A stretch of 64,000 nt of DNA. Origin: Streptomyces sp. G-G2 (lineage in GTDB: Bacteria > Actinomycetota > Actinomycetes > Streptomycetales > Streptomycetaceae). The stretch is taken from assembly GCF_030063135.1 (NCBI RefSeq), contig NZ_JASISO010000001.1:82977-146976 (forward strand), read 5' to 3'. Below are positions 16,113 to 31,255 of this stretch, piece by piece. The position numbers were made by a program, and so were the translations under genes. Positions within the stretch are counted from its first letter, which is position 1. Every line of letters starts with the position of its first letter. A model generated the notes under the pieces. It was not told the origin of the DNA and did no database searches. It saw only the letters and a program-made list of their open reading frames with translations.

Positions 16113-17078
16113 TCACCACGGCGGGCGCAGGCGCAGGACCTCCGGGGGTGGGTGGCGGCCCGAGGAGTGGCGGACCTCCGCCGTCAGCGGGGGGTCCAGC
16201 ACCCGGTAGGGGACCTCGCCGAGCCCGATCGCGGTGACCGTGCCGCCGCCCGTCCCGGCCGGGGAGGGGCCGGCGGCCAGAGCAGCCGCCACCTCCGCCC
16301 GTACCGCGCTGCCCAGCGGGCTCGACACCATCGGTTCGTCCACCTCGGCCACCTCCGCCACGGCGTCCTCGACGCCCCCGGCACCGGGCCGCGGCTCCCC
16401 GCCTCCGCCTCCGTCCCCGTCCCCCGACAGGATCAGTACCAGCGCCACCGGCCGCCCCGCCGTCCCCGTGTACCCGATCACCGCCGCGTCCCGGGTCTCG
16501 GTGTGCCGCAGCTTGCGCCAGCCCCGCCGCCCCGTCGGGTAGGCCTGTTCCAGCCGCTTGATCACCAGGCCCTCGATCCCACTGGCGGGCAGCGTCTCGT
16601 ACCAGGTCACCGCCAGCCCCGGGTCCGTGGTCATCGGCACCGGCTGCAGCGGCGGCCCCAGCGGGAGCAGCAGGTCGACCAGCAGCGCCCGCCGCCGCTC
16701 GTACGACCGCCCGCGCAGGTCCAGCCCGGCCAGTTCCAGGACGTCGAAGGCCGCGTACGACGCGGGCAGGGTCCGGGCCAGGGCCGCCGCCCGGGTGGCG
16801 GTCGCGGCGGCCCGGCGCTGGACGAGCGCGAAGTCCGTGCGGCCCTCGTGCCACACCACCACCTCCCCGTCGAGCGTGGTCCCGGTGGGCAACTCCCCTG
16901 CCGCGGCGACCAGATCGGGGAACGCCGCGGTCACCACGCGGCCCGACCGGGCCTGGAGCACCACGCCCTCGCCGGTCCGCCGGACCACCAGCCGGTGCCC
17001 GTCGAACTTCGGCTCGTAGGCCAGCCCCGCGCCCCGCGGCAGCTCCCGCACGGACGCGGCCAGCGCGACCCGGATCAC
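16113..17078 (-). CDS. ATP-dependent DNA ligase (NHEJ, LigD ligase-domain type)
   Basis: A 321-residue stand-alone ligase that seals breaks in non-homologous end joining. The adenylation motif is YEPKFDGHRLVV, with the nucleotide-accepting Lys near residue 24. Later motifs include TLDGEVVVW, AAFDVLELAG, EGLVIKR and WRKLRH. A Gly/Asp/Glu-rich insert (about 225-260) interrupts the C-terminal OB part. GTG start overlaps the stop of the polymerase gene (GTGA at 17075-17078). In mycobacteria these modules are fused in one LigD; here they are separate, coupled genes next to ku. Confidence 0.92.
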   Translation of the reverse strand: MIRVALAASVRELPRGAGLAYEPKFDGHRLVVRRTGEGVVLQARSGRVVTAAFPDLVAAAGELPTGTTLDGEVVVWHEGRTDFALVQRRAAATATRAAALARTLPASYAAFDVLELAGLDLRGRSYERRRALLVDLLLPLGPPLQPVPMTTDPGLAVTWYETLPASGIEGLVIKRLEQAYPTGRRGWRKLRHTETRDAAVIGYTGTAGRPVALVLILSGDGDGGGGGEPRPGAGGVEDAVAEVAEVDEPMVSSPLGSAVRAEVAAALAAGPSPAGTGGGTVTAIGLGEVPYRVLDPPLTAEVRHSSGRHPPPEVLRLRPPW

Positions 17079-17998
17079 GACGCACCCTCGGTACGGGCCC
17101 CGCCCCCCGGCAGTGAACCCGCCCGCCCGGGGTCGGTCAGCGGCGCGAACAGGTCCCCGTCCCGGGCCAGCCGCGCCACCACCTCGTCGGCGAGGAACAC
17201 CATCGCGGCGGGGTCCCCCTCCTCCCGGCAGCCCGCCACCTCGGCCCACGACACCGGCGCCGACACCGTCGGCAACCGGCGCGCCCGCAAGGTGTAGGGC
17301 GCGGCCGTGGTCTTGGCGGCGGCGTTCTGGCTGTGGTCCACGAACACCTTCCCCGGCCGCAGCGCCTTCGCCATCCGGTGCACCACCAGCCCCGGAAGCT
17401 CGTTCTCCGCCTCCTGCGCGAGCGCCTTCGCGTACGCCGACACCTGCTCCGACGCCGTCGGCTCCAGCGCCACCGCCAGGTGCATCCCCTTGGAGCCGGA
17501 GGTCTTCGCGTACGCCTCCAGCCCGTCCGCCGCCAGCCGCTCCCGCAGCCACAGCGCGACGGCGCAGCACTCCACCGCGGTGGCCGTCGGCCCGGGGTCG
17601 AGGTCGAGGACCAGCCGGTCCGCCACCGCGGGCCGGTCGGTGGTCCACTGCGGAGTGTGGAACTCGACGACCAGGTTCGCGGCCCACATCAAGGTCGCCA
17701 GGTCGGCCACCACCACCTGCTCGGCACTCTGGTCCTCGGAGCGGGGCACCCGTACGGTCTTCACCCACCCGGGCGTGCCCGGCGGCGGATTCTTGGTGAA
17801 GAACAGCTGCCCGTCCGGCCCGTCCGGATAGCGCAGGAACGAGACCGGCCGGTCGTGGACGTGCGGCAGCAGGGCCTGCGCGACGGTGGCGTAGTAGTGC
17901 AGTACCTCGCCCTTGGTGAAGCCGCTCTCCGGATAGAGGACCTTCTCCAGATTGCTCAGCGCGAGGCGCCGCCCCTCCACCGATGTGATCGGCGTCAT
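17075..17998 (-). CDS. ligD: LigD-type DNA polymerase/primase domain protein
   Basis: A 307-residue archaeo-eukaryotic primase-type polymerase for end joining. Motifs seen: GRRLALSNLEKVLYP at the start, VSFLRYPDG, LVLDLDPG with catalytic Asp pair, KTSGSKGMHLAV, VFVDHSQNAAAKTT. ATG at 17998 follows a weak site; frames starting further upstream run into the ku promoter and are unlikely. Transcribed divergently from ku with only 31 bases between starts, and coupled to the ligase gene downstream. Confidence 0.93.
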   Translation of the reverse strand: MTPITSVEGRRLALSNLEKVLYPESGFTKGEVLHYYATVAQALLPHVHDRPVSFLRYPDGPDGQLFFTKNPPPGTPGWVKTVRVPRSEDQSAEQVVVADLATLMWAANLVVEFHTPQWTTDRPAVADRLVLDLDPGPTATAVECCAVALWLRERLAADGLEAYAKTSGSKGMHLAVALEPTASEQVSAYAKALAQEAENELPGLVVHRMAKALRPGKVFVDHSQNAAAKTTAAPYTLRARRLPTVSAPVSWAEVAGCREEGDPAAMVFLADEVVARLARDGDLFAPLTDPGRAGSLPGGGARTEGAS

Positions 17999-18029
17999 AC
18001 CATGAGACTGCCACGAATCAGGAGGAACA

Positions 18030-19166
18030 GTGCGATCCATATGGAACGGGGCAATCTCCTTCGGCCTGGTCAGCATCCCGATCAAGCTGGTGAACGCCAC
18101 CGAGAACCACTCGATCTCCTTCCGCCAGATCCACACCGCCGACGGCGGTCGCATCCGCTACCGCAAGGTGTGCGAGCTGGACGGTGAGGAGGTGTCCTCG
18201 GCCGAGATCGGCAAGGGGTACGAGGAGGCGGACGGATCGGTCATCCCGATCACGGACGAGGACCTGTCGACGCTGCCGCTGCCCACCGCCAAGACGATCG
18301 AGATCGTGACGTTCGTACCCGCCGCGCAGATCGATCCGCTCCAGATGGACGCCGCGTACTACCTCGCGGCGAACGGTGTCCCGGCCGCCAAGCCCTACAC
18401 CCTCCTGCGCGAGGCGCTCAAGCGGAGCGACCGCGTGGCCATCGCCAAGTTCGCCCTGCGGGGGCGCGAGCGGCTCGGGATGCTGCGCGTGGTGGACGAC
18501 GTCATCGCCATGCACGGACTGCTGTGGCCGGACGAGATCCGGGCCCCGGAGGGCGTCGCACCGGAGACCCGGGTGACGATCCGCGAAGCGGAACTCGACC
18601 TGGCGGACGCCCTGATGGCCACCCTGGGCGAGGTGGAGGAGGTGGCCTCGCTGCACGACGACTACCGCTCGGCCGTCGAGACCATGATCGCGGCGAAGTC
18701 GGAGTCGGGGGAAGGGGCGGCGCCGACGGAGGCCCCGGCTCCGAGCGGGGGTGCGCAGGTGATCGATCTGATGGCGGCCCTCGAAAAGAGCGTACGGGCG
18801 GCCAAGGCTTCCCGCGGCGAGAGCGGGAGCGGGAACGCGGGCGAGACGGCGGAGGTCACCCCGATCCGCCGCCCGGCGGCCCGCACGTCGGCCCCGAAGT
18901 CGGCGGCGGCCCCCAAGCCCGCCACGGGCAAGAAGTCGGTGGCGTCGACCACGAAGAAGACGGCGGCCAGGGCGACGAAGACGGCGAAGTCGACGGCGCG
19001 GACCGCCCAGCCCGCGAAGAGCGCGAAGAAGACACCCGCGAAGTCGACGTCGAAGACGGCTACGAAGGCGGCTGCGACGGCGGCGGCCAAGACGACGAAG
19101 TCGACGTCGAAGGCCTCCTCGAAGTCCGCGTCCTCGCCCACCCCGCGCAAGCGCACCTCGGCCTGA
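18030..19166 (+). CDS. ku: Ku DNA end-binding protein
   Basis: A 378-residue homodimeric Ku that binds double-strand ends and recruits LigD-type enzymes. The first 260 residues are the Ku beta-barrel core (SIWNGAISFGLVSIPIKL, YRKVCELDGEEV, KPYTLLREAL, ELDLADALM). The last 110 or so residues are a Lys/Ala/Ser/Thr-rich tail like a histone H1 tail, which probably adds DNA affinity. GTG at 18030 follows AGGAGG with six bases between. Confidence 0.95.
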   Translation: MRSIWNGAISFGLVSIPIKLVNATENHSISFRQIHTADGGRIRYRKVCELDGEEVSSAEIGKGYEEADGSVIPITDEDLSTLPLPTAKTIEIVTFVPAAQIDPLQMDAAYYLAANGVPAAKPYTLLREALKRSDRVAIAKFALRGRERLGMLRVVDDVIAMHGLLWPDEIRAPEGVAPETRVTIREAELDLADALMATLGEVEEVASLHDDYRSAVETMIAAKSESGEGAAPTEAPAPSGGAQVIDLMAALEKSVRAAKASRGESGSGNAGETAEVTPIRRPAARTSAPKSAAAPKPATGKKSVASTTKKTAARATKTAKSTARTAQPAKSAKKTPAKSTSKTATKAAATAAAKTTKSTSKASSKSASSPTPRKRTSA

Positions 19167-20877: not shown

Positions 20878-21129
20878 CTACGGCGCCTCCGGGACTTCGG
20901 CGTCCTGCGGTCCGGATCCCTGCGGTCCGGAGTCGTGGTGGACGTGCATGTCGCCGTTCGTGACGGCGTAGACGGTCCCGTGGTCCTTCGCCGTGTTGGT
21001 CTGGGACGGACCGGCCGGGCCGGGCGCCGGGTTGCCGAGCCCGACGTGGTTGCCGTTGCCGACGATGACGGGGCCGGACACGTCACCGCCGATCCGGATC
21101 TCGACCGGGTTGTCCGATGCGGCTGTCAC
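20878..21129 (-). CDS. 83-residue two-motif peptide, candidate adaptor
   Basis: A short, low-complexity protein. Residues 9-29 (VEIRIGGDVSGPVIVGNGNH) form a beta-type motif with VIVGNGN, close to the RHIM core pattern and to residues 16-36 of the NTPase encoded just upstream. Residues 44-65 (TNTAKDHGTVYAVTNGDMHV, then HH) form a second motif that recurs at the C-termini of the cyclase-like and helical proteins at 24765 and 25501. Pro/Gly linkers separate the motifs. GTG at 21129 has AAGGAG upstream. I infer an adaptor or seed that joins proteins carrying either motif. Confidence 0.72.
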   Translation of the reverse strand: MTAASDNPVEIRIGGDVSGPVIVGNGNHVGLGNPAPGPAGPSQTNTAKDHGTVYAVTNGDMHVHHDSGPQGSGPQDAEVPEAP

Positions 21130-21144
21130 CGTGGACGCTCCTTC

Positions 21145-21168
21145 GGGTGCGGGTGCGGGTGCGGGTGC
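21145..21168. repeat. GGGTGC tandem repeat (four copies)
   Basis: Four perfect hexamers, with degenerate copies after, in the 86-base gap between the NTPase stop and the two-motif peptide start. Confidence 0.85.
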
Positions 21169-21215
21169 GGGCGGGTGCGGTCGGGGGCGGGCGTACGGGC
21201 CGGCCCCCGCCCACG

Positions 21216-23612
21216 TCATGACGTGCGGACCAGCGTGGCCGTTTCACAGCTGTAGGCGCAGGCCGGCCCACCGGGTGTGGATCCCTTGACGACCGTCGCG
21301 GTGGACCCGTCGGAGGAGAGGGTGATCTTCATGGAGAGGCGCCCGATCACCCCCTGCCCGTCGCAGCTGCCGTCCGGGAGGTACCCGTAGGCGGTCTGCG
21401 TCCCGCTGTAACTGTCGCCGCTGCCCGTGAGTTCCACGTCGATGGGACCGCACTGCGTCGACACCCGCCCCGAGTACGAACCGGTCCCCGCGTCGGCGAA
21501 GTGGATGCTGGTGCCCTCGCCGTCCCGCCAGGTTCCGGCGAGCCCGGTGGCCGACGGCGGATCGTCCTGGAGCTGGTTGAGGGCGACCCCGCCGACGGCG
21601 ATCGCCACGATGACGGCGATCAGGGTGGCGACGAGGCTCGCCATGGAGGTGCCGGCGGCCGCCGCGCCACCGGCGGCGGCAGCCGCCCCCGCGCCGCCCG
21701 CGCCCGCGGTCCCCATGGTCCCGACCGTCCCCGCGGTCCCCAGGTGCGCCCCTCCGGCGGCGCCCAGGTGCGCGGTGCCCGCCGTGCCCACGTGAGCGGT
21801 TCCGGCGGTTCCCACATGTGCCGTGCCCGCATGTGCCGCGCCCACATGTGCCGTGCCCGCGTGCGCGGTGCCGACATGGGCGGTTCCCACGTGGGCGGTT
21901 CCCGCATGGGCCCCACCCGTGGTGCCCAGGTGCGCGGTGCCCGCGTGAGCCCCGCCGGCCGTGCCGAGGTGTGCGCCGCCCGCCGTACCCGCGTGCGCCG
22001 TGCCGCCGTTCCCCGCCAGGTTCCCCATGTGGGCGGCCACGCTCTGGGCAGGTGTGGCGGCGGCCCCGCTGTGCGCGGCCGCGACGTGGGCCGAGGCCGT
22101 CGCCCCACTGGGCAGCAGCGGAGCCGTCGGCGCCACCGGGATCGCCGCGAACTGGTGGAGCTGCAGCGCGGCGGCCGCGCCGTGACTGTTGCTCAGCGCC
22201 TGCCACAGCATCAGCGCCTCGGCCGCGAGGGCCACGAACAGGACGCGCTGGCCGGTCAGCAGCGCCCGGATGGCTTCCTCATGGGTGAAGTACGCCTCGG
22301 CCTGCCGGTCACCCGTCGCCCGGGCCGAAACCCAGCCACGGCCCAGCAGTCGCCCCCACACACCGAACCGCAAGGAACGGGCCAGCGCCGGTGAGGCCGC
22401 CCGCGCCACCCGTACGGCGAGCTCCGGCCGCCCGTCCCGCTCGGCCAGCTCGGCCGCCAGCTCCAGGGCCCTGCCCAGCCCGGCGACCTGCGCGGGCGTC
22501 GTGTCCGCACGCTCCGCCCACTGGACGAAGTACTCGCACAGCCGCTCGGCCGGGAAGGGGCTCGGGCACTTCTGCCGTACCGCCGGACCGACATCCGTGG
22601 TGAACAGGTACCCGTGCTCCACGGCCACGACCAGCCCGAGACCGGCCAGGCGGTCGCAGACCCCCGCCGCGTCCGGTACGTCGGTCAGCGCGCCGATGTG
22701 CACCGGATCCAGCACCGCGCCGTACAGGGTCGCCATCAGGTGCAGCACGTTCAGCTCCGCCGTACCGAGCTGCTCCAGCAACTCCGGGAGGAGCGAGGCC
22801 ACTTCACCCGGCAGGGGCAGCCGGGCCTCGCCCGCCGGACCGAGCCGGGCCAGCCCGGCCGCGCGCAGCAGCGGAAGGGGGAGGCCCGCCGCCGCCTGCC
22901 ACAGGTCGGTCGCGCCACCGAGTTCGCCCTCCCGCAGCGGGCGCCGCAGCTCCCGGGCGAGCAGTTCCAGCCCCGCGGCCCGGTCCAGGCCCTTGATCTC
23001 CAGCGCGGTGCCGTCGTTCCACAGCGACCGGTCGGAGGCGGCGAAGACGAAGGTCGCGTCCGGGGCCGCGTCCGCGAGGTCCAGCAGCTGCCCGTAGGTC
23101 AGGTCGGCGTCGTCGAGGTAGACGGTCACCGGTATCCCCGCCATCAGCCGCCGCAGCTCGGCGCGCGACGGGGCGTAGCCCGGGGCCTCGTAACAGGCCT
23201 CGAACAGCTCTTGGGCCAGGTCCGCGACCTCGCGGTACGCCGCCGTCAGGAACACCACACCGGCCGGACCCGGCTCCAACTGGCGTGCCGCATGCCGGAG
23301 CAGCGTGCTCTTGCCGACGCCGGGCGGACCCCACAACTGGACCAGGCCGCCCGCCCGGACGGCGTCGGCGAGCGCGGCGCTCTCGCTGCTCCGGCCCACC
23401 GGCTCCGGCACCCGCCGCGGCAGCAGTTCGACCCGCTCACGGCGAACCGGCCGCGGCCGCTCCCGTTCCATGACCACCGTCACGGTCGACCCGTGCTGGG
23501 CGTCGACGACCATGTTGTGGTCGCCCACGATCACGGCTCCCGCGTTCCCCTCGACGCTGATCCGGTGACCGGCCCGTGGTCCGGCCGGCTGCCCCTCGTC
23601 CGTCTCTTCCAT
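21216..23612 (-). CDS. STAND-like NTPase with membrane anchor and N-terminal RHIM-like motif
   Basis: A 798-residue protein. Residues 16-36 carry a short motif (ISVEGNAGAVIVGDHNMVV) like that in the small peptide downstream. The NTPase domain has a P-loop GPPGVGKS at about 95-102 and Walker B-like VTVYLDDAD at about 162-170, followed by a winged-helix-like and helical region to about 480. Residues 536-630 are an Ala/Gly/Thr/His repeat (GTAHVG type). A membrane helix lies at about 657-679. The last 115 residues hold four Cys and look like a small beta domain outside the cell. ATG at 23612 follows GGGAAGG. The layout resembles a signal-sensing STAND ATPase. It has no recognised effector domain. 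Confidence 0.78.
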   Translation of the reverse strand: MEETDEGQPAGPRAGHRISVEGNAGAVIVGDHNMVVDAQHGSTVTVVMERERPRPVRRERVELLPRRVPEPVGRSSESAALADAVRAGGLVQLWGPPGVGKSTLLRHAARQLEPGPAGVVFLTAAYREVADLAQELFEACYEAPGYAPSRAELRRLMAGIPVTVYLDDADLTYGQLLDLADAAPDATFVFAASDRSLWNDGTALEIKGLDRAAGLELLARELRRPLREGELGGATDLWQAAAGLPLPLLRAAGLARLGPAGEARLPLPGEVASLLPELLEQLGTAELNVLHLMATLYGAVLDPVHIGALTDVPDAAGVCDRLAGLGLVVAVEHGYLFTTDVGPAVRQKCPSPFPAERLCEYFVQWAERADTTPAQVAGLGRALELAAELAERDGRPELAVRVARAASPALARSLRFGVWGRLLGRGWVSARATGDRQAEAYFTHEEAIRALLTGQRVLFVALAAEALMLWQALSNSHGAAAALQLHQFAAIPVAPTAPLLPSGATASAHVAAAHSGAAATPAQSVAAHMGNLAGNGGTAHAGTAGGAHLGTAGGAHAGTAHLGTTGGAHAGTAHVGTAHVGTAHAGTAHVGAAHAGTAHVGTAGTAHVGTAGTAHLGAAGGAHLGTAGTVGTMGTAGAGGAGAAAAAGGAAAAGTSMASLVATLIAVIVAIAVGGVALNQLQDDPPSATGLAGTWRDGEGTSIHFADAGTGSYSGRVSTQCGPIDVELTGSGDSYSGTQTAYGYLPDGSCDGQGVIGRLSMKITLSSDGSTATVVKGSTPGGPACAYSCETATLVRTS
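21723..22007. repeat. Coding repeat for an AH(V/A/L)GT pentapeptide array
   Basis: On the minus strand this stretch encodes about 95 residues made of Gly-Thr-Ala-His-(Val/Ala/Leu) units, so His recurs about every five residues. It joins the cytoplasmic NTPase part to the membrane helix. Confidence 0.85.
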
Positions 23613-23746
23613 CGCCCCCGCCTTCCCGGCCGCGGAAACACGGCCGCGCTCTGGTTGGCCCGCTTACCGCCACGCTAGCGACGAGTCGGCGCGGCAATAC
23701 CGTCATACGACTGTTTCCCGCACCGCTGCCCACCCGCGTCCGGCCG

Positions 23747-24466
23747 TCAGGTGAACGCGATGCTGTTCAGGAGGGCGAGGTTCTCGATCCGGATGCTGCG
23801 GTAGCCCGTGGAGACCACCCCCGTCTCGCGCAGTCCGCGCAGTGCCTTGTGCACGGTGGGTTCCGACGCGCCCGACAGCGTGGCGAGTTCGGGCTGGGTG
23901 ATGGGCCAGCGGATCACGGCTCCGGCGCCGTCGCGTTCCCCGTAGGACAGGGCGATCTGATGCAGTACCCGGGCCAGCCGCGTGGCGGCTCCGCAACCGG
24001 TGAAGTCGACCCGGTGGTTGTTGGCCACGCGCAGTTTGGCCACGATCGACTCGTTCACCGCGTGCGCGATGCGGGCGTCCCGTCGCATGCAGTCGAGGAA
24101 GTCCTCCCGGGTCACCATCCGGGCGACGGCGGCTCCGCAGGTGGTGACCGTCGCCGACCTGGGCTGCCCGTCCACCGCGGCGAGTTCGCCGACCAGGTCC
24201 CCACCCATCCGGACGGCCAGCAGGGCGTCCCGGTGGTCCTGGGTGCGCGCGGTCGCCTTGACCACCCCGTCCAGCAGGACCAGTACGAAAGTGGTCCGCT
24301 CCGACTCGCGCATGAGCACCCGGTCGGCCGGGTAGCGGGCGCGCGCGCCGAGCGCCAGCAGGCGCTCCCGCGAGGCCCGGCCGAGGCCGCCGAGCAGGCT
24401 CGCCGACGGCCAGGCCCACTCCTCGCGCGGCCACCGCCCGCTCCGGCCCGGAACTCTGTCATCCAT
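23747..24466 (-). CDS. Crp/Fnr-type regulator with intact cyclic-nucleotide cassette
   Basis: A 239-residue regulator. The N-terminal cNMP-binding domain has the phosphate-binding cassette GDLVGELAAVDGQPRSATV (about 89-107), with Glu94 and Arg103 in the positions that hold the ribose and phosphate of cyclic nucleotides. The C-terminal winged helix (about 186-225) includes WPITQPELATLSGASEPTVH. ATG at 24466 follows AAGGGAG; an extension to 24508 is possible. It is divergent from a cyclase-like gene and is the first gene upstream of the NTPase and small peptide. Confidence 0.88.
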   Translation of the reverse strand: MDDRVPGRSGRWPREEWAWPSASLLGGLGRASRERLLALGARARYPADRVLMRESERTTFVLVLLDGVVKATARTQDHRDALLAVRMGGDLVGELAAVDGQPRSATVTTCGAAVARMVTREDFLDCMRRDARIAHAVNESIVAKLRVANNHRVDFTGCGAATRLARVLHQIALSYGERDGAGAVIRWPITQPELATLSGASEPTVHKALRGLRETGVVSTGYRSIRIENLALLNSIAFT

Positions 24467-24559
24467 GCCGCCCCGCTCCCTTCGCGTCCCGGCGCCCGCG
24501 CGCGCCACTCAGTGTGCGTCCCGGGCGTACGGCGAGCACCGACCGTACGCCCGGCTGTC

Positions 24560-24587
24560 TTGAAACGTTCGGTGGATCCCGTATCAC
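24560..24587 (+). promoter_or_regulatory. Predicted promoter for the cyclase-like gene
   Basis: TTGAAA (24560-24565) and TATCAC (24582-24587) are spaced by 16 bases, a good match to a housekeeping promoter. It is directed towards the gene at 24765, leaving a leader of about 170 bases. Confidence 0.5.
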
Positions 24588-24596
24588 GACGGGATC
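24575..24596. promoter_or_regulatory. Palindromic operator candidate over the -10 region
   Basis: GATCCCGT and its complement ACGGGATC flank a 6-base centre. Total length is 22 bp, the size of a Crp-type site, and the palindrome overlaps the predicted -10. The neighbouring Crp-type protein is the obvious candidate ligand. Inference only. Confidence 0.45.
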
Positions 24597-24647
24597 TCCG
24601 CCGCGGGTCCGTGTCACCGTGGGGTACGCGCACGAGGGCGAGCGTAG

Positions 24648-24716
24648 GAACGAGAACGAGAACGAGAACGAGGCGCGCGAACGAGGCGCGAGAACGAGAA
24701 CGAGCCACGAGAACGG
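24648..24716. repeat. GAACGA hexamer repeats in the leader of the cyclase-like gene
   Basis: Four perfect tandem GAACGA units (24648-24671) are followed by several dispersed copies, making a purine-rich strand just before the start at 24765. The stretch 24467-24764 otherwise holds only the promoter and palindrome. Confidence 0.85.
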
Positions 24717-24764
24717 GGGCGGACACTCGAACCACGTCATGCCACTACTCCCCAAGAGAGCCGT

Positions 24765-25490
24765 ATGGACCACGAGTTGGAATACCGGGCCGTGCTGGCC
24801 GTCGACATCGAACGCTCTTCCGGCCGCGGCAACGTGGCGCTCCTGCGAATCCGCGAGGTGCTCGCGACGGCGCTGCGCGCCTCGTTCGAGGAGAGCGGGA
24901 TCGACTGGAACGCCTGCCTGCGGGACGACCTCGGCGACGGCATGCGGGTGACCGCGCCGAGCGGCGTACGGAAGACCAGACTGCTGCACCCGTTGATCCA
25001 CGAACTCTCGGTCCGCCTGCGCGCCCACAACCGCACGGCGGGCCCCGCGACGCAGGTCCGCGTCAGGGCCGCCCTGCACGCGGGCGACGTCTTCGTCGGC
25101 CGGGGCGGGGAGGTCACGGGACGGCCGCTCGAAGTCCTCGCCCGCCTACTGGACGCGCCCCCGGCCCGCGCGGCCCTGGCCGCGGCGCCGGAGACCGTGA
25201 CGGCCTCGGTCCTCGTCTCCCAGCACTTCCACGAGGAGACGGTGCGGCACGGCTACCCGGGAATCGACCCGGACACCTTCCGCGAGGTCACCTTCACGGT
25301 GAAGGAACACACCGCGCGCGCCTGGCTCCATCTGCCGGGCCTCACCGCGGCAGTGACCCCGCTCCCGCTCCCGCAGGATCCCGCTGCGGCCTCGGAGCCC
25401 TCACACATGACCAACCGGGCGTCCGGCCACGGCGTCGTCTACGCGACCCAGAACGGCAGCCAGCACATCCACATCAACGGACAGAAGTGA
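24765..25490 (+). CDS. Degenerate class III nucleotidyl cyclase-like protein with C-terminal motif
   Basis: A 241-residue protein. Residues 7-190 follow a class III cyclase layout: AVLAVDIERSS with the first metal Asp (D14), LRDDLGDGMRV with the second (D58), then VRAALHAGDVFV and GRPLEVLARLLDA. In active enzymes the last motif is VNxAARL; here the Asn is Glu123 while Arg127 is kept, so activity or substrate is uncertain. Residues 215-241 (TNRASGHGVVYATQNGSQHI and on) repeat the motif of the small peptide at 20878 and of the next gene. ATG at 24765; the next gene starts ten bases after the stop. Confidence 0.75.
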   Translation: MDHELEYRAVLAVDIERSSGRGNVALLRIREVLATALRASFEESGIDWNACLRDDLGDGMRVTAPSGVRKTRLLHPLIHELSVRLRAHNRTAGPATQVRVRAALHAGDVFVGRGGEVTGRPLEVLARLLDAPPARAALAAAPETVTASVLVSQHFHEETVRHGYPGIDPDTFREVTFTVKEHTARAWLHLPGLTAAVTPLPLPQDPAAASEPSHMTNRASGHGVVYATQNGSQHIHINGQK

Positions 25491-25500
25491 AGGGGGACAG

Positions 25501-25932
25501 GTGGACGACATGACCGCACTGGCGGAAGCGGGAGCCGCCGCCCTGGTCACGGCGATGGCCACGGACCTGTGGCAGGACACGCGCACCGCCGCCATCGCCC
25601 TCTTCCGCCGCTCCGACCGCACCCGCGGGGCCGCGATCGAAGCCCAACTCGACGGCAACGAAGCCCTCGTCCGCGAGGCCGACACCCCGGACACGGCCCG
25701 CCGGGCCCTGCTGGACTACTGGACCCTGGAACTGGCGGCCCTCCTGCGCCGCCACCCCGCCGCCCACGCCCCCCTCACCCACCTGACCGCCACCGTCACC
25801 GCCTCCCTCCCCGAAGCCCAACGCCCCCTCACCCTCCACCAGACGAACACGGCCCACGACTCCGCCACGATCTACGCGGTCCAACACGGCACCCTCCCCA
25901 TCCACCACCACCCGGAGGCCGGCGACATGTGA
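25501..25932 (+). CDS. Small helical protein with the shared C-terminal motif
   Basis: A 143-residue protein. Residues 1-110 are Ala-rich and helical (LAEAGAAALVTAMATDLWQD, RRALLDYWTLELAALLRRHP). Residues 115-137 (TNTAHDSATIYAVQHGTLPI, then HHH) match the motif in the cyclase-like protein and the two-motif peptide. GTG at 25501, with AAGGGGGACAG before it, sits ten bases after the cyclase stop, so the two form an operon. I know of similar Streptomyces proteins in this arrangement but not their function. Confidence 0.75.
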   Translation: MDDMTALAEAGAAALVTAMATDLWQDTRTAAIALFRRSDRTRGAAIEAQLDGNEALVREADTPDTARRALLDYWTLELAALLRRHPAAHAPLTHLTATVTASLPEAQRPLTLHQTNTAHDSATIYAVQHGTLPIHHHPEAGDM

Positions 25933-26206: not shown

Positions 26207-28276
26207 CTACCGGCGGCGCCCACGCCCCGGCTTTCCTCCGCGCGCGGGCCGGCCCGTCGTGCCCGGTCGCCGTCCGGCGCGTGCCATAGGCGTGCGCGGC
26301 AGCCGGGCTGCGGCATCGCGCAGATCCTGGAGCGCGGCGTGGTCGGGGTGCGAGGCGGTCAGAGCGACGTCGAGGGCCTCGCGGAAGTCGGCTCCCTGCG
26401 CGCGGACGGCATCGGTGAAGCCGTCCGCGCCGGCGACCTCCAGGAACTGGAGCATGCCTTCCGCGACCATGACCAGGCTCTCCGCCTCGGTCAGGTCCTC
26501 GGGGGCGAGGAGGCCCCGGCTGACGAGAACACCGATGGCGAGCGGTGCCACCTGTGGGTCGCGGCGCAGGCGCAGGGCGAACCGGTCGCCTTCATCCTGT
26601 GGCAGCGCGGCGCATAGCGTTTCGAGCATGGCCTGTCCACGGGTGCGGTAGGGCGTGGTGCGGATGGCGTCCAGGAGGAGGGGGAGAGCGCGGTCGGGGC
26701 CGTCGTGGGACTGGACCCACCGGTCCAGTTCGAGGCGCGCCGAGTCAGTGTCGTAGTGCTCGGCGAGGATGCCCAGGAGGCCGGCGGCGGGCGCGTGGGC
26801 GAGTTCCCCGACGAGGGGGGCGTCGCGGCCCGCGTCGAGCAGGCGGCCGCGTACCGCCCAGGTGCCCAGGGCGGTCAGGCGGATCAGCTCCACGGGACCG
26901 TCGGACGGTTCGCCGGTGTCCGATGCGGCGTCAGGGCTCCGGCCGTCCGGGAGCGCGGCGCTTCCGGCGGCCCTGCCGGGAACCGGGGGCACGGCGCCCG
27001 CGGGGAGCGGGAACGACCGGTAGACGGGGTCCGCGAGGCCCACCGGCCTTTCGACGGCGCCGAGTTCCTCCAGCAGGTCCAGCACCACGCGCAGGTCGCG
27101 GTGCGCGTCGTCGAACCACATCCGGTCAGCGGCCCCGCCGAGCTGGAACCGGACCCGGTAGGCGTGGTCGACGGAGTCGCGCAGCCGGGGCCAGGGCATG
27201 GGGTGGGGCAGGCTGTAGAGGGTGTTGAGGACGTCGGGGAGGATGTCCTCGTAGGCGTCGAAGAGCATCGACTCGGCATGCCAGCCGCTCTTCGCACCGA
27301 GCAGCGGCCGCCGCATACCGAACACGGCGTCGAACGCGCGCCGCCACAGAGCGAGCGGGTCCTTCAGGTCACCAACGGCCTTCCCGACCGCGTACAGGCG
27401 GCCCTTGACGACCCGTACCAGGAGGGCCGCCCTGGCCAGTTCGAAGACCAGGCTCAGGCGCGGCAGGTCGTCGACGGAGCGCACGGCGGCGGGCGGGGTG
27501 TCCCCGGTGCCGAGCCGCTCGGCGAGCTCGCGTGCGTCAGCGGTCTTCAGCCGCCCGGTGGCCGTGAGGGGCCGGCCTTCCCTGCCCGCCCATTCTGTGA
27601 GCCCCTGAAGCATGCCGAGCAGCGTCACCCGCCCCGCCTCGGCCCTCAACGTCTCCGGTGGCGGGAGGGTGACGGGCAACTGCGGCTCGGCGCGCAGGGA
27701 CCCCGGCGGTCCCTCGGTCATGTGCCGTGCGGCGATCGCCTGCAGTACGTCCTCGTCGTACGGGATGTCTCCGCGTCGGGCGCGTTCGGTGAAGCGGGCC
27801 AGCGCCGCGGGACTGCCCAGGTCGACGCCTTGTTCGGCCGCGAGAGTGGTCCAGAACTTCGCGAGCCCCCAGCGGGTCCGGTCGGCCATCGCCTGTGGAT
27901 AGCCGGCCGCCGTGTCGTCGACGGCGCCGAGCAGGGTGTCCAGGTCCGTCCCGCGCGGGTCCGCCAGCCCGGTGGCCTCCAGGTAGCGCAGCAGCAGCCG
28001 CAGTGCCTCCGGCGCCTCGGGCAGTTCTTCGCCTGGCAGGACCGTGAGCGTTCGGGGCGCCCAGTCGAGCAGGAACGCCTGGACGTGCCGCGGCTCCCAC
28101 AGCCCCAGCCGTCCGTCGACGGTGGCACCGTGCCGGTAGTCGAGCGCGACGGCCACGGCGAAGGCGTCCACCGCGTCCGAGCCCTGGACCTGTACGGCCC
28201 ACCGCTCCAGCCGCCCGACGAACACGTCACGGGCTGTCTCGAATCCGTCGTCATCGGGCTCGTAGTGCATGCGCAT
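26207..28276 (-). CDS. Large hypothetical protein
   Basis: A 689-residue protein that I cannot assign. The N-terminal third contains ALDYRHGATVDGRLGLWEPR and VQAFLLDWAPRTLTVLPGEE, a pattern seen in uncharacterised large Streptomyces proteins. The middle has LVFELARAALLVRVVKGRLY and WRRAFDAVFGMRRPLLG, the C-terminal part is helical, and the end is Gly/Arg-rich. There is no signal peptide, membrane helix or clear catalytic motif. ATG at 28276; a second ATG two codons later is equally possible. It opens the accessory region. Confidence 0.7.
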   Translation of the reverse strand: MRMHYEPDDDGFETARDVFVGRLERWAVQVQGSDAVDAFAVAVALDYRHGATVDGRLGLWEPRHVQAFLLDWAPRTLTVLPGEELPEAPEALRLLLRYLEATGLADPRGTDLDTLLGAVDDTAAGYPQAMADRTRWGLAKFWTTLAAEQGVDLGSPAALARFTERARRGDIPYDEDVLQAIAARHMTEGPPGSLRAEPQLPVTLPPPETLRAEAGRVTLLGMLQGLTEWAGREGRPLTATGRLKTADARELAERLGTGDTPPAAVRSVDDLPRLSLVFELARAALLVRVVKGRLYAVGKAVGDLKDPLALWRRAFDAVFGMRRPLLGAKSGWHAESMLFDAYEDILPDVLNTLYSLPHPMPWPRLRDSVDHAYRVRFQLGGAADRMWFDDAHRDLRVVLDLLEELGAVERPVGLADPVYRSFPLPAGAVPPVPGRAAGSAALPDGRSPDAASDTGEPSDGPVELIRLTALGTWAVRGRLLDAGRDAPLVGELAHAPAAGLLGILAEHYDTDSARLELDRWVQSHDGPDRALPLLLDAIRTTPYRTRGQAMLETLCAALPQDEGDRFALRLRRDPQVAPLAIGVLVSRGLLAPEDLTEAESLVMVAEGMLQFLEVAGADGFTDAVRAQGADFREALDVALTASHPDHAALQDLRDAAARLPRTPMARAGRRPGTTGRPARGGKPGRGRRR

Positions 28277-28446: not shown

Positions 28447-28663
28447 TCAGGCGCTGGTGTCCGGGGACGGAATGGCGGCCACCGCCACGTCGACGCCCTG
28501 CGCGCGCAGCGCGCGGGCCGCCTGCAGCAGGGACACCTGGGAGAAGGTGAACAGGTTCTTGGTCGTCAGGGCTTTGCCGCTCTTGAGCGAGATGGCGTAG
28601 ACGACCTTCCGCGGGGTGAAGTCCTCGCCGAGCAGGTCCGCGGCCTCGTGGAGACACACATGA
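28447..28663 (-). pseudogene. Fragment of an unknown gene
   Basis: The minus strand encodes VCLHEAADLLGEDF, TPRKVVYAISLKSGKALTTK and VSLLQAARALRAQGVDVAVA, with good codon bias and a stop at 28447. The likely beginning is missing, as the frame overlaps the start of an opposite-strand frame at 28660. I read it as the C-terminal remnant of a larger gene. Confidence 0.35.
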
Positions 28664-28974
28664 ATCGTCTGAAGGACGTCAAGGCATCCCATCCCACCCT
28701 CACCCAAGAAGAGTTGGATCAAGAGTGCCAAGCCGCCGTCGATCGGGCTGAGGGCATCTGGAAGAGGATCTGTGGCGACGCCTCATGGGACGGCGAGGAC
28801 GAGCGGAACCGACACCTCGCGGACCACCTTCACGAGGCGAGGCAGGAGGCCATCTCCGACCGCGCGGTGGGCTATGGGCGAACAGTTGATGGCGTTCGAA
28901 TCATGGCTTGGCCATCAGAACAAGGGATGACCGTCGGCGACATTCCGACGCCGTCCGGTCTGGTCACATCTTGA
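28660..28974 (+). CDS. Small hypothetical protein, uncertain
   Basis: A possible 104-residue protein (MNRLKDVKASHPTLTQEELD, AAVDRAEGIWKRICGDASWD). It is charged and helical to about residue 75, after which the sequence looks less natural and runs into the end of the vapC-like gene. No strong ribosome site is visible. It could be an intact small gene or a remnant. Confidence 0.35.
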   Translation: MNRLKDVKASHPTLTQEELDQECQAAVDRAEGIWKRICGDASWDGEDERNRHLADHLHEARQEAISDRAVGYGRTVDGVRIMAWPSEQGMTVGDIPTPSGLVTS

Positions 28975-29797: not shown

Positions 29798-31255
29798 ATG
29801 GATGCTGGGGATGTGGCGCTGATGGAGTTCAAGGGCAGGTCTGCTGACCTGGATCAGCTGGCGCGGCAGCTGGGCCTGGTAGCCGATGGTACGGGCGCCA
29901 CCCGTGGTCAGGCTGTGATCGTGACGGGGCGGCGCCGGGTGGGCAAGTCTCGTCTGGTCCAGGAGTTCTGCGACCGTTCCGGGCTTCCGTACGTGGTCTT
30001 CCAGGCGACCCGGGGACGCAACGCCGTGGCCGAGCGGGCGGACTTCGCCGCGACGCTGGCGCATTCCGCTCTGCCCGGGGCCGAGCTGGTGGCCGGGCTG
30101 CAGGCCGCCGACTGGAACCAGGCACTGCGTTCCCTGGCGGTCGCGGTTCCGGACGATGCCCCGAGCATTGCGGTGGTCGACGAGGTGCCGTGGCTGGTGG
30201 AACAGGACGGGGAGTTCGAGGGGGCGCTGCAGACGGTCTGGGACCGGCACCTGTCCGCCAAGCCGGTCCTGTTGATCCTGGTCGGCAGTGACATGTCGGT
30301 GATGGAGGCGCTGCAGTCCTATGGCCGCCCGTTCTTCGGCCGGGCGGCCAAGATGACCGTACAGCCGCTGCATCTGGCCGATGTGCAGGCGATGACCGGT
30401 CTTGACGCGGCGGAAGCGGTGGACGCGCTGCTGATCACCGGAGGGTTCCCGGAGATCGTTCAGTCCTGGCGGCCGGGGATGGGCCGCAGAGACTTCCTGC
30501 GCGAGGCTGTGTCCAACCCGCTTGCGCCGCTGTTGGTGGCGGGCGAACTGTCGCTGCTGGGGGAGTTTCCCGAGGCGTCCCACTCGCGCGCGATCCTGGA
30601 AGCGGTCGGCAGTGGCGAGCGGACCTTCTCCACCATTGCCGCACAAGCCGGCGGTGCGGGCGTGCTGCCCTCGGGCACGCTGTCTCCGCTGTTGAGCACG
30701 CTGCTGGCCAAGCGGGTCCTGGCCGCTGACCTGCCCCTCTCGATCAAGGCGGACAGCAAGAACAAGCGCTATCGCATCGCCGATCCGTACCTCCGGTTCT
30801 GGCTGGCTTTCCTCCAGCGCGGGATCCCGCTCATCGAGCGCGGTCGCGGTGATCTGGCGCTGGAGCGCATCGAGCGGTCGTGGACGACCTGGCGGGGCCG
30901 GGCCGTCGAGCCGGTCGTCCGGGAATCGCTGCTGCGCCTGCTGCCCGATGAGAGGTGGCCGCAGGCGGAGGCGGTCGGGGGTTGGTGGAACCGGCAGAAC
31001 AACCCGGAGATCGACCTGATCGGCGCCGACCGTGAACCCGTCGCGGGGCGGGTTCACTTCATCGGCTCGGTGAAGTGGCTGGAGGCGCAGCCGTTCGGCC
31101 GCCGTGAGTACGACGCCCTGGTGCGGGACATGCTCGCCGTGCCCGGCGCCGAGCCGGGCACGGCGCTGGTGGCGGTGTCCCGTTGCGGTGTTGAGGACGA
31201 TCTGCCTCTTGCGGCGCACTGGGGTCCGGAAGACCTTGTTCGTGCCTGGCGGTAG
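29798..31255 (+). CDS. AAA ATPase with DUF234-like C-terminal domain
   Basis: A 485-residue ATPase of the type often called archaeal ATPase plus DUF234. The P-loop is GRRRVGKS (about 44-51) and Walker B is IAVVDEVPWL. A winged helix follows, then RYRIADPYLRFWLAFLQ and a C-terminal nuclease-like fold with EIDLIGAD and FIGSVKW. In related proteins the last motif is usually GECKW, so the catalytic Glu appears replaced by Ser. Family members often sit in mobile regions. The start could be ATG 29798 or ATG 29822 (MEFKGR), which matches homologues better. Confidence 0.82.
   Translation: MDAGDVALMEFKGRSADLDQLARQLGLVADGTGATRGQAVIVTGRRRVGKSRLVQEFCDRSGLPYVVFQATRGRNAVAERADFAATLAHSALPGAELVAGLQAADWNQALRSLAVAVPDDAPSIAVVDEVPWLVEQDGEFEGALQTVWDRHLSAKPVLLILVGSDMSVMEALQSYGRPFFGRAAKMTVQPLHLADVQAMTGLDAAEAVDALLITGGFPEIVQSWRPGMGRRDFLREAVSNPLAPLLVAGELSLLGEFPEASHSRAILEAVGSGERTFSTIAAQAGGAGVLPSGTLSPLLSTLLAKRVLAADLPLSIKADSKNKRYRIADPYLRFWLAFLQRGIPLIERGRGDLALERIERSWTTWRGRAVEPVVRESLLRLLPDERWPQAEAVGGWWNRQNNPEIDLIGADREPVAGRVHFIGSVKWLEAQPFGRREYDALVRDMLAVPGAEPGTALVAVSRCGVEDDLPLAAHWGPEDLVRAWR

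Follow-up and report, generated by a model that had tools for sequence, protein, structure and literature searches.

A conserved actinobacterial cassette with the layout of an amyloid-motif signalosome: a class III-fold cyclase as candidate effector and a probable adaptor peptide with an exchangeable motif

Five adjacent genes of Streptomyces sp. G-G2 (contig NZ_JASISO010000001.1; the 64,000-nucleotide stretch that was analysed is called the window, and all coordinates refer to it) occupy positions 20878..25932: genes for a short peptide, a STAND-type NTPase and a Crp-type regulator on the minus strand and, divergently on the plus strand, genes for a cyclase and a small helical protein. Our analysis supports the reading that this cassette is an NLR/amyloid-motif signalosome with a cyclase as effector and an exchangeable bivalent adaptor, the mechanism of which we infer from its parts. 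A preliminary description based on the letters of the DNA had proposed a cyclic-nucleotide and amyloid-type signalling system here; all five genes lie where it placed them, in two divergent units, and its interpretation is supported. The motif chain that it had noticed, with a motif M1 common to the STAND protein and the peptide and a motif M2 common to the peptide, the cyclase and the helical protein, is present and goes beyond chance. We consider it fairly probable that the five genes form a relay: the receptor would engage the peptide through M1, the peptide would engage the cyclase and the helical protein through M2, and second-messenger synthesis would follow.

The adaptor peptide (20878..21129, minus strand) has 83 residues when read from a GTG start with the ribosome-binding site AAGGAG; an alternative upstream ATG would extend it to 113 residues, and 113 of 120 homologues among the matches listed were 66-100 residues long. 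The database search, in which both motifs were inside the query, gave a family of 210 proteins, and 117 of the 120 among the matches listed carried both motifs by model, the other three having the variant M1 of loci L079/L080. M1 (approximately I-x-I-G-G-D-A-x-G-P-V-V-A-G-x-x-N-x-V-E) is found at the N-termini of the STAND protein and the peptide, with V, I and F as its central residue in 32, 16 and 1 of 49 M1 sequences, respectively. M2 (approximately Q-T-N-T-A-x-D-H-G-T-V-Y-A-V-x-N-G-D-x-H-I-H) is found in the C-terminal parts of the peptide, the cyclase and the helical protein. In the window, the M1 model matched the peptide (EIRIGGDVSGPVIVGNGNHVGLG, 21034..21102, minus strand, E 4.4e-9) and the STAND protein (HRISVEGNAGAVIVGDHNMVVDAQ, 23496..23567, minus strand, E 8.9e-10), and the M2 model matched the peptide (QTNTAKDHGTVYAVTNGDMHVHHD, 20932..21003, minus strand, E 2.4e-15), the cyclase (HMTNRASGHGVVYATQNGSQHIHIN, 25404..25478, plus strand, E 1.4e-13) and the helical protein (HQTNTAHDSATIYAVQHGTLPIHHH, 25837..25911, plus strand, E 7.3e-13). 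M2 was present in 118 of 119 cyclases among the matches listed of 190, and in 114 of 120 helical proteins among the matches listed of 200, M2 being part of the latter query.

Neither motif was found outside the cassette in the 8.19-Mb genome, where the M2 model matched at three places, all in the cassette (E ≤ 7.3e-13; next match E 2.4), and the M1 model at two, both in the cassette (E ≤ 4.4e-9; next match E 0.73). Since the window sequences supplied 3 of the 13 rows of the M2 model and 2 of the 14 rows of the M1 model, the cassette matches were expected, and the result is the absence of further matches in the genome. The fetched loci, some of them represented twice, together comprise 1,804 called genes, of which M2 matched 132 (E ≤ 1e-3); 129 of these belong to the peptide, cyclase and helical families and the other three adjoin a cyclase, and 114 matches, the same three extras included, were left once the repeated short loci L001-L020 were removed. 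M1 matched 61 of the 1,804 genes: 35 STAND, 25 peptide and 1 cyclase. Core-cassette proteins were the source of both models, and the family label of a short peptide rests partly on the motifs; a first M1 pattern, which caught 4 sequences, was replaced, and 12 peptide or STAND genes that did not match the pattern were excluded from the M1 model.

Numerous filamentous soil bacteria carry the cassette. Scanning the genome collection by pattern yielded 50 named loci, all of them actinobacterial. All five genes were found in 23 of the 50 (six-frame open reading frames, E ≤ 1e-3); with the window and ten wider loci added, the count was 27 of 61; some of the missing genes are explained by contig ends (e.g. 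L022, L025, L031, L052). The five-gene named loci come from Streptomyces, Kitasatospora, Nocardia and Wenjunlia, while Saccharomonospora (L034) and Streptomonospora (L041) have four genes, the helical protein alone not being found there. Gene order is constant across loci except in L079/L080, and loci L060-L070 hold distant cyclases only, outside any cassette. Four of the 61 genomes available for the genus contain a cyclase of at least 60% identity, i.e. the cassette is patchy; at the level of the class, the wider cyclase family is present in 37 of 197 genomes and 13 of 90 genera. A search of 50,697 phage records with the cyclase found nothing, and a plasmid collection gave distant matches only (28-34% identity), in 7 records; one of these, at 11.9 Mb, looks like a chromosome. 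The preliminary description had named an unconserved neighbourhood and generic low-complexity motifs as grounds for abandoning the idea, and neither was seen. That the five genes are accidental neighbours and the motifs low-complexity sequence, for which one may cite the Pro/Ala-rich linkers and the 15 AHxG repeats of the window STAND protein, is refuted by the conserved cassette, the private motifs and the paired motif swaps described below, and we give this explanation almost no credence.

Natural swaps of the M1 half of the peptide bear on its role. In L071/L072 the peptide retains M2 and its first half reads SGGNQYAxVVQSGEITNL, which matches the N-terminus of a neighbouring 743/754-residue protein, AGGTSYGPLVQAGKIES; the 754-residue neighbour is of the NACHT type (E 1.9e-9). 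At L036 it is the C-terminus of a 588-residue neighbour that the first half of the peptide closely matches (score 107), and in L079/L080 a variant M1 (IGRDxNGxxVVAxxA) is common to the peptide and the STAND protein. The mean scores of the own pairs in L071/L072, L036 and L079/L080 were 53.5, 107 and 59, compared to 24.1, 22.3 and 29.2 against receptors of the other types. Among 31 canonical pairs, which include two cyclase/STAND pairs (L056, L057), the own sum of 1,894 (permuted 1,673 ± 39) was reached in 0 of 20,000 permutations, a test that is inflated by shared ancestry. In L072, L079 and L056, one other receptor each outscored the own one. The two Actinomadura loci L056 and L057, in which no peptide was found, carry an N-terminal M1 on the cyclase itself (E 1.7e-6 and 0.0031, respectively) and an adjoining STAND protein with M1. 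Both the mirrored swaps and the cyclase-borne M1 strengthen the earlier suggestion that the peptide, with its two motifs, links the other proteins, and from these sequence comparisons the peptide is likely to be an adaptor with an exchangeable M1 half and a constant M2.

The distant cyclases of the family point in the same direction, having many different C-terminal tails in which Gly, Asn and hydrophobic residues are often abundant. For 24 representatives of less than 60% mutual identity with a co-directional downstream gene of at least 550 residues, the masked cyclase tail was aligned with the downstream N-terminus in one fixed pairing. The own sum was 641, compared to a permuted mean of 459 (standard deviation 22.5) and a maximum of 613 in 20,000 permutations; for the 17 loci fetched after the idea had formed, it was 381 compared to a permuted maximum of 377. 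With four other masks, the own sum of the full set lay above all 20,000 permutations every time, and that of the 17 late loci was reached by 0, 0, 3 and 23 of 20,000. Matching pairs include GSLVGGDQHGVSGGQVTGDVI, found in both proteins at L108, and SFGGHAAGRDV, found in both at L081. An unmasked test of tails against neighbours (own best in 8 of 55) was discarded, being dominated by Pro/Ala linkers. The downstream partners have a strict Walker A motif in just 2 of 24 cases (that or, by our reading, a degenerate form such as GSPGSGRT in 13 of 24) and are therefore called receptor-like rather than proven STAND proteins; the window STAND protein gave no phmmer match to any of the 24. Streptomonospora (L041:685-1758) has a second, divergent cyclase with its own Crp protein and a downstream partner with a different common tail.

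Several results weigh against a relay built on matched motifs. The M1 pair of the window itself is weak (score 31, canonical mean 61; 31 of 37 receptors score higher), and for the L057 cyclase four other receptors outscore the own one. In the divergent loci the own partner was the best match in 8 of 24 and not the single best in 16 of 24, and the late-set counts of 3 and 23 both came from the settings in which entropy masking was omitted. PADLOC gave no clear match for the cyclase, the peptide, the helical protein or the STAND protein, and the match of the peptide to Cas56g (E 0.017) is at chance level. Membership of M1 in the canonical RHIM family, the core of which is given as G-(I,V)-Q-(I,V)-G in the portion of PMC7885112 used here, was rejected, the central Gln being absent. 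The lack of this Gln also fits a rival view, in which M1 and M2 are ordinary docking tails that pair by β-strand addition or as short linear motifs and form a stoichiometric, non-amyloid scaffold placing the cyclase at a membrane receptor. Motif matching tells partners and not the mode of pairing, and the M2 tails are of low confidence and free of predicted structure in the models of both the cyclase and the helical protein. Against docking tails speak the richness of both motifs in Gly, Asn and hydrophobic residues and their position near chain ends, the occurrence of M2 in three kinds of protein otherwise devoid of likeness, as expected of a homotypic motif, and the pairing of an NLR-type NTPase N-terminus with effector C-termini, which is the layout of bacterial amyloid signalling as far as PMC7889193 was available to us. 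We regard plain docking as unlikely, though deserving of a place beside amyloid-type templating.

The cyclase (24765..25490, plus strand, 241 residues, with a linker and the C-terminal M2) gave no match in Pfam, NCBIfam or PADLOC (E ≤ 1), and a sequence-profile search of the PDB yielded no clear relative (best E 0.28), so that a structure model was needed. The model has the homology fold of class III nucleotidyl cyclases and bears out the earlier label "cyclase-like". The metal-binding Asp residues are conserved in the core cyclases (D14 in 46 and D58 in 47 of 48), as is the transition-state Arg (48 of 48), and among 82 distant cyclases 77-80 keep these residues; the positions taken for the metal Asp, and for the transition-state Asn and Arg, are presumed ones, assigned from class III motifs. 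Two features count against an ordinary purine cyclase: 40 of 48 core cyclases have Glu at the position of the transition-state Asn (37 of 82 distant ones retain Asn), and the purine-specifying Lys is present in 0 of 48. With the Asn replaced and no purine Lys, the cyclase could, judging by its residues, be inactive or make another product. The first of these options can be extended to a catalytically dead cyclase acting as a nucleotide-binding or dominant-negative module, with the Crp protein answering another ligand; inactive cyclase domains are reported from related conflict systems in the part of PMC7159879 that was consulted. The retention of the metal Asp and the transition-state Arg argues against a dead enzyme, as does that of Asn in the 37 distant relatives, and the linkage to a Crp protein with an intact phosphate-binding cassette argues for a cyclic nucleoside monophosphate (cNMP) that is made and sensed. 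PycC enzymes, moreover, use other residues for pyrimidine substrates according to the excerpt of PMC11224242. On balance a dead cyclase appears improbable to us.

The Crp-type regulator (23747..24466, minus strand, 239 residues) matched the Pfam domains cNMP_binding (E 4.5e-15) and HTH_Crp_2 (E 1.1e-12), and the phosphate-binding Glu95 and Arg104 (numbering of the 240-residue P0003) were present in 48 of 48 aligned Crp rows, 43 of them distinct, in agreement with the complete cNMP cassette noticed before. The protein thereby combines the features of the Crp/Fnr family, a cNMP-binding domain with the Glu/Arg phosphate-binding cassette and a winged helix-turn-helix. A Crp-like gene adjoins the cyclase in 33 of 55 representatives, compared to 5 of 270 control genes. 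Between the crp and cyclase genes lies a predicted operator (24576..24595), ATCCCGT-N6-ACGGGAT, a perfect palindrome of 7-bp halves of which this is the single perfect copy in the genome; at up to two mismatches the genome holds 55 sites, compared to 9 for a reversed control pattern. With up to three mismatches allowed, 28 of the 35 regions between crp and cyclase genes contain it, compared to 9 of 205 intergenic regions elsewhere in these loci and 0.9% of shuffled regions, a count that loses force through the derivation of the pattern from the same 35 regions. A CANN(C/G)TG element (24615..24622, plus strand), possibly a -10 element, lies 19 bp past the operator; this spacing was found in 15 of 28 sites, with one site each at 18 and 20 bp and none at any other spacing within the 35 bp scanned. 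The element is a weak one, present in 17 of the 28 sites only, which again tells against the promoter as proposed. If it is taken as the -10 element, the operator centre falls at -41.5, which we take to be the position of class II Crp activators, and a site so placed predicts a product-driven positive feedback. The 5' leader predicted for the cyclase gene contains GAACGA-type direct repeats at about 24650-24710.

The STAND-type receptor (21216..23612, minus strand, 798 residues) matched AAA_16 of Pfam (E 1.8e-8; 35.5 bits, cut-off 32.6) and has the P-loop GPPGVGKS at residue 95, while its score against nSTAND_NTPase5 (PF25199) was 18.1 bits and below the Pfam gathering cut-off of 34. PADLOC matches to mad8 and two other models (E 0.0023-0.016) were set aside, being confined to the P-loop region. 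Its linker (residues 527-625) contains the fifteen AHxG repeats, whereas all other STAND-labelled genes of the fetched loci have fewer than five. A predicted transmembrane segment (21579..21638, minus strand; mean hydropathy 2.81 over 19 residues from residue 660) covers approximately residues 660-678, and the C-terminal 120 residues behind it carry four Cys. Four Cys beyond the most hydrophobic segment were found in 30 of 39 STAND proteins compared (three of the remaining nine, L022, L025 and L052, are truncated at contig ends), and it is therefore possible that the C-terminal domain is a disulphide-bearing sensor outside the membrane. The predicted membrane segment and the Cys-bearing tail would also suit a developmental or envelope-stress switch, with a receptor that monitors the cell surface and a feedback loop by which hyphae become committed to a programme, rather than a system of conflict or cell death; the presence of a Crp site and the actinobacterial origin of all 50 named loci are in keeping with it. 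The patchy distribution of the cassette is unlike that of core developmental genes, and at L071/L072 the 754-residue NACHT protein occupies the place of the receptor. NACHT proteins are typical of conflict systems. We judge such a switch to be somewhat unlikely, yet a serious candidate.

The small helical protein (25501..25932, plus strand) has 143 residues, or 140 if the ATG at 25510 is used. Its model consists of a five-helix domain, the first helix of which is mildly hydrophobic (mean hydropathy 1.18), followed by a disordered tail. Like the peptide it gave no Pfam match (E ≤ 1) and none in NCBIfam, and it also had no match in PADLOC; the helical domain found no significant fold match in the PDB by Foldseek or VIA-align, a further point to set against the relay. 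By layout it is similar to the Bell effectors, which the portions of the bacterial amyloid-signalling literature used here describe as homologous to HeLo and MLKL and as forming pores at the membrane. In L041, where the helical protein was not found, M2 sits on a 115-residue protein with hydrophobic stretches, and L073-L075 have two helical proteins and, beside the cyclase, a 173-193-residue protein weakly matching the cyclase profile.

Taken together, the relay could proceed as follows. The predicted membrane-anchored STAND NTPase would sense an envelope event, maybe through its Cys-bearing domain outside the membrane, and oligomerise. Its M1 would template that of the peptide, probably by forming an amyloid-type cross-β stack, a step that builds on the matched and exchangeable M1 pairs seen in the sequences. 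The M2 of the peptide would then recruit the C-terminal M2 of the cyclase and of the helical protein, which share this motif. Crowding would pair cyclase protomers; as cyclases isolated as monomers can turn active as dimers (PMC11224242, in the text available to us), clustering would activate the cassette cyclase. The Crp protein would bind the product and, from the site near -41.5, activate the cyclase/helical promoter, giving positive feedback, and the helical protein would be a damaging or membrane-acting arm. Going further, we tentatively propose, with slightly less than even confidence, a plug-and-play amyloid relay in which exchangeable peptides, receptor-specific in one half and constant in the half that meets the effector, place a single cyclase under the control of different STAND or NACHT receptors through templated polymerisation, and in which the class II Crp loop makes for a self-sustaining, memory-like hyphal state.

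Other genes of the window were noted as well. Adjoining the cassette is a 689-residue protein (26207-28276, minus strand) with no Pfam or PADLOC match, followed by a 94-residue open reading frame (28450-28731, minus strand) that matches the last 49 positions of DUF6119 only (E 7.3e-12) and is possibly a remnant. About 4 kb from the cassette, a 480-residue ATPase (29813-31255, plus strand; DUF234/ATPase_2) matches the PADLOC candidate phage-defence family PDC-S27 (E 4.5e-22). On the other side, divergent genes for a LigD primase-polymerase and Ku (17075-19166) represent bacterial non-homologous end joining.

If the proposal is correct, the cassette joins receptor-to-effector templating by short terminal motifs with cyclic-nucleotide second messengers, two subjects treated apart in the portions of the literature consulted, and turns a cell-surface event into a second-messenger signal. 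It would be a bacterial counterpart of the bipartite adaptors of animal innate immunity, would give a reason why many actinobacterial class III-type cyclases end in short diverse motifs, and would offer a testable natural code in which the adaptor follows swaps of the receptor motif; thanks to the dedicated operator, a simple reporter would suffice to measure the output. Among the matches listed in our literature search, we found no account of a cyclase as effector of bacterial amyloid-motif signalling.

Comparison with known systems is based on the available portions of the papers cited. The conflict systems of Kaur et al. (PMC7159879, PMC8195603) likewise bring together cNMP cyclase domains, CRP-like factors and STAND/AP-ATPases in actinobacterial multi-gene systems, but there the cyclase forms fusions with VMAP, vWA, EAD or similar modules that belong to ternary systems; the main text of PMC7159879 uses neither RHIM nor amyloid as a term, and amyloid occurs once in PMC8195603, in the reference list. 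The peptide-processing systems of the same authors (PMC7159879 section 24) were set aside because a zincin peptidase and a radical-SAM gene are both absent from the five genes. Pycsar (PMC11224242) resembles the cassette in having a class III-type cyclase gene beside a gene for a cyclic-nucleotide-binding protein, and the cyclic-nucleotide-binding domain of the Crp protein, over this domain only, matches PADLOC PycTIR (E 2.8e-12) and a PycC model (E 3.1e-5). In contrast to Pycsar, the binding protein of the cassette has a Crp-type helix-turn-helix (HTH_Crp_2) and no TIR or transmembrane effector domain, and its cyclase, which has no PADLOC PycC match, is tied to a receptor by motifs. The RHIM necrosome (RIPK1/RIPK3; PMC7885112) shares short homotypic motifs and a receptor-adaptor-effector chain, and M1 has a φ-x-φ-G core, but the central Gln of RHIM is missing from canonical M1. 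Closest is NLR-Bell amyloid signalling (BASS1-10; PMC7889193, PMC8086366, PMC9815663, PMC12261475), with an NTPase N-terminal motif, neighbouring effectors ending in a matching motif, multicellular actinobacterial hosts and several motif families; the window receptor, an NLR/STAND NTPase with AAA_16, a P-loop and M1 at residues 16-39, has this receptor layout. The partners named in those portions are Bell, CHAT and TIR, cyclases not being among them. In BASS the same motif is present on receptor and effector, an arrangement of which direct sharing in some divergent loci is reminiscent, whereas in the cassette the receptor carries M1 and the adjacent effectors end in M2, with a two-motif peptide between them, a class III-fold cyclase as effector and a Crp regulator with its own site.
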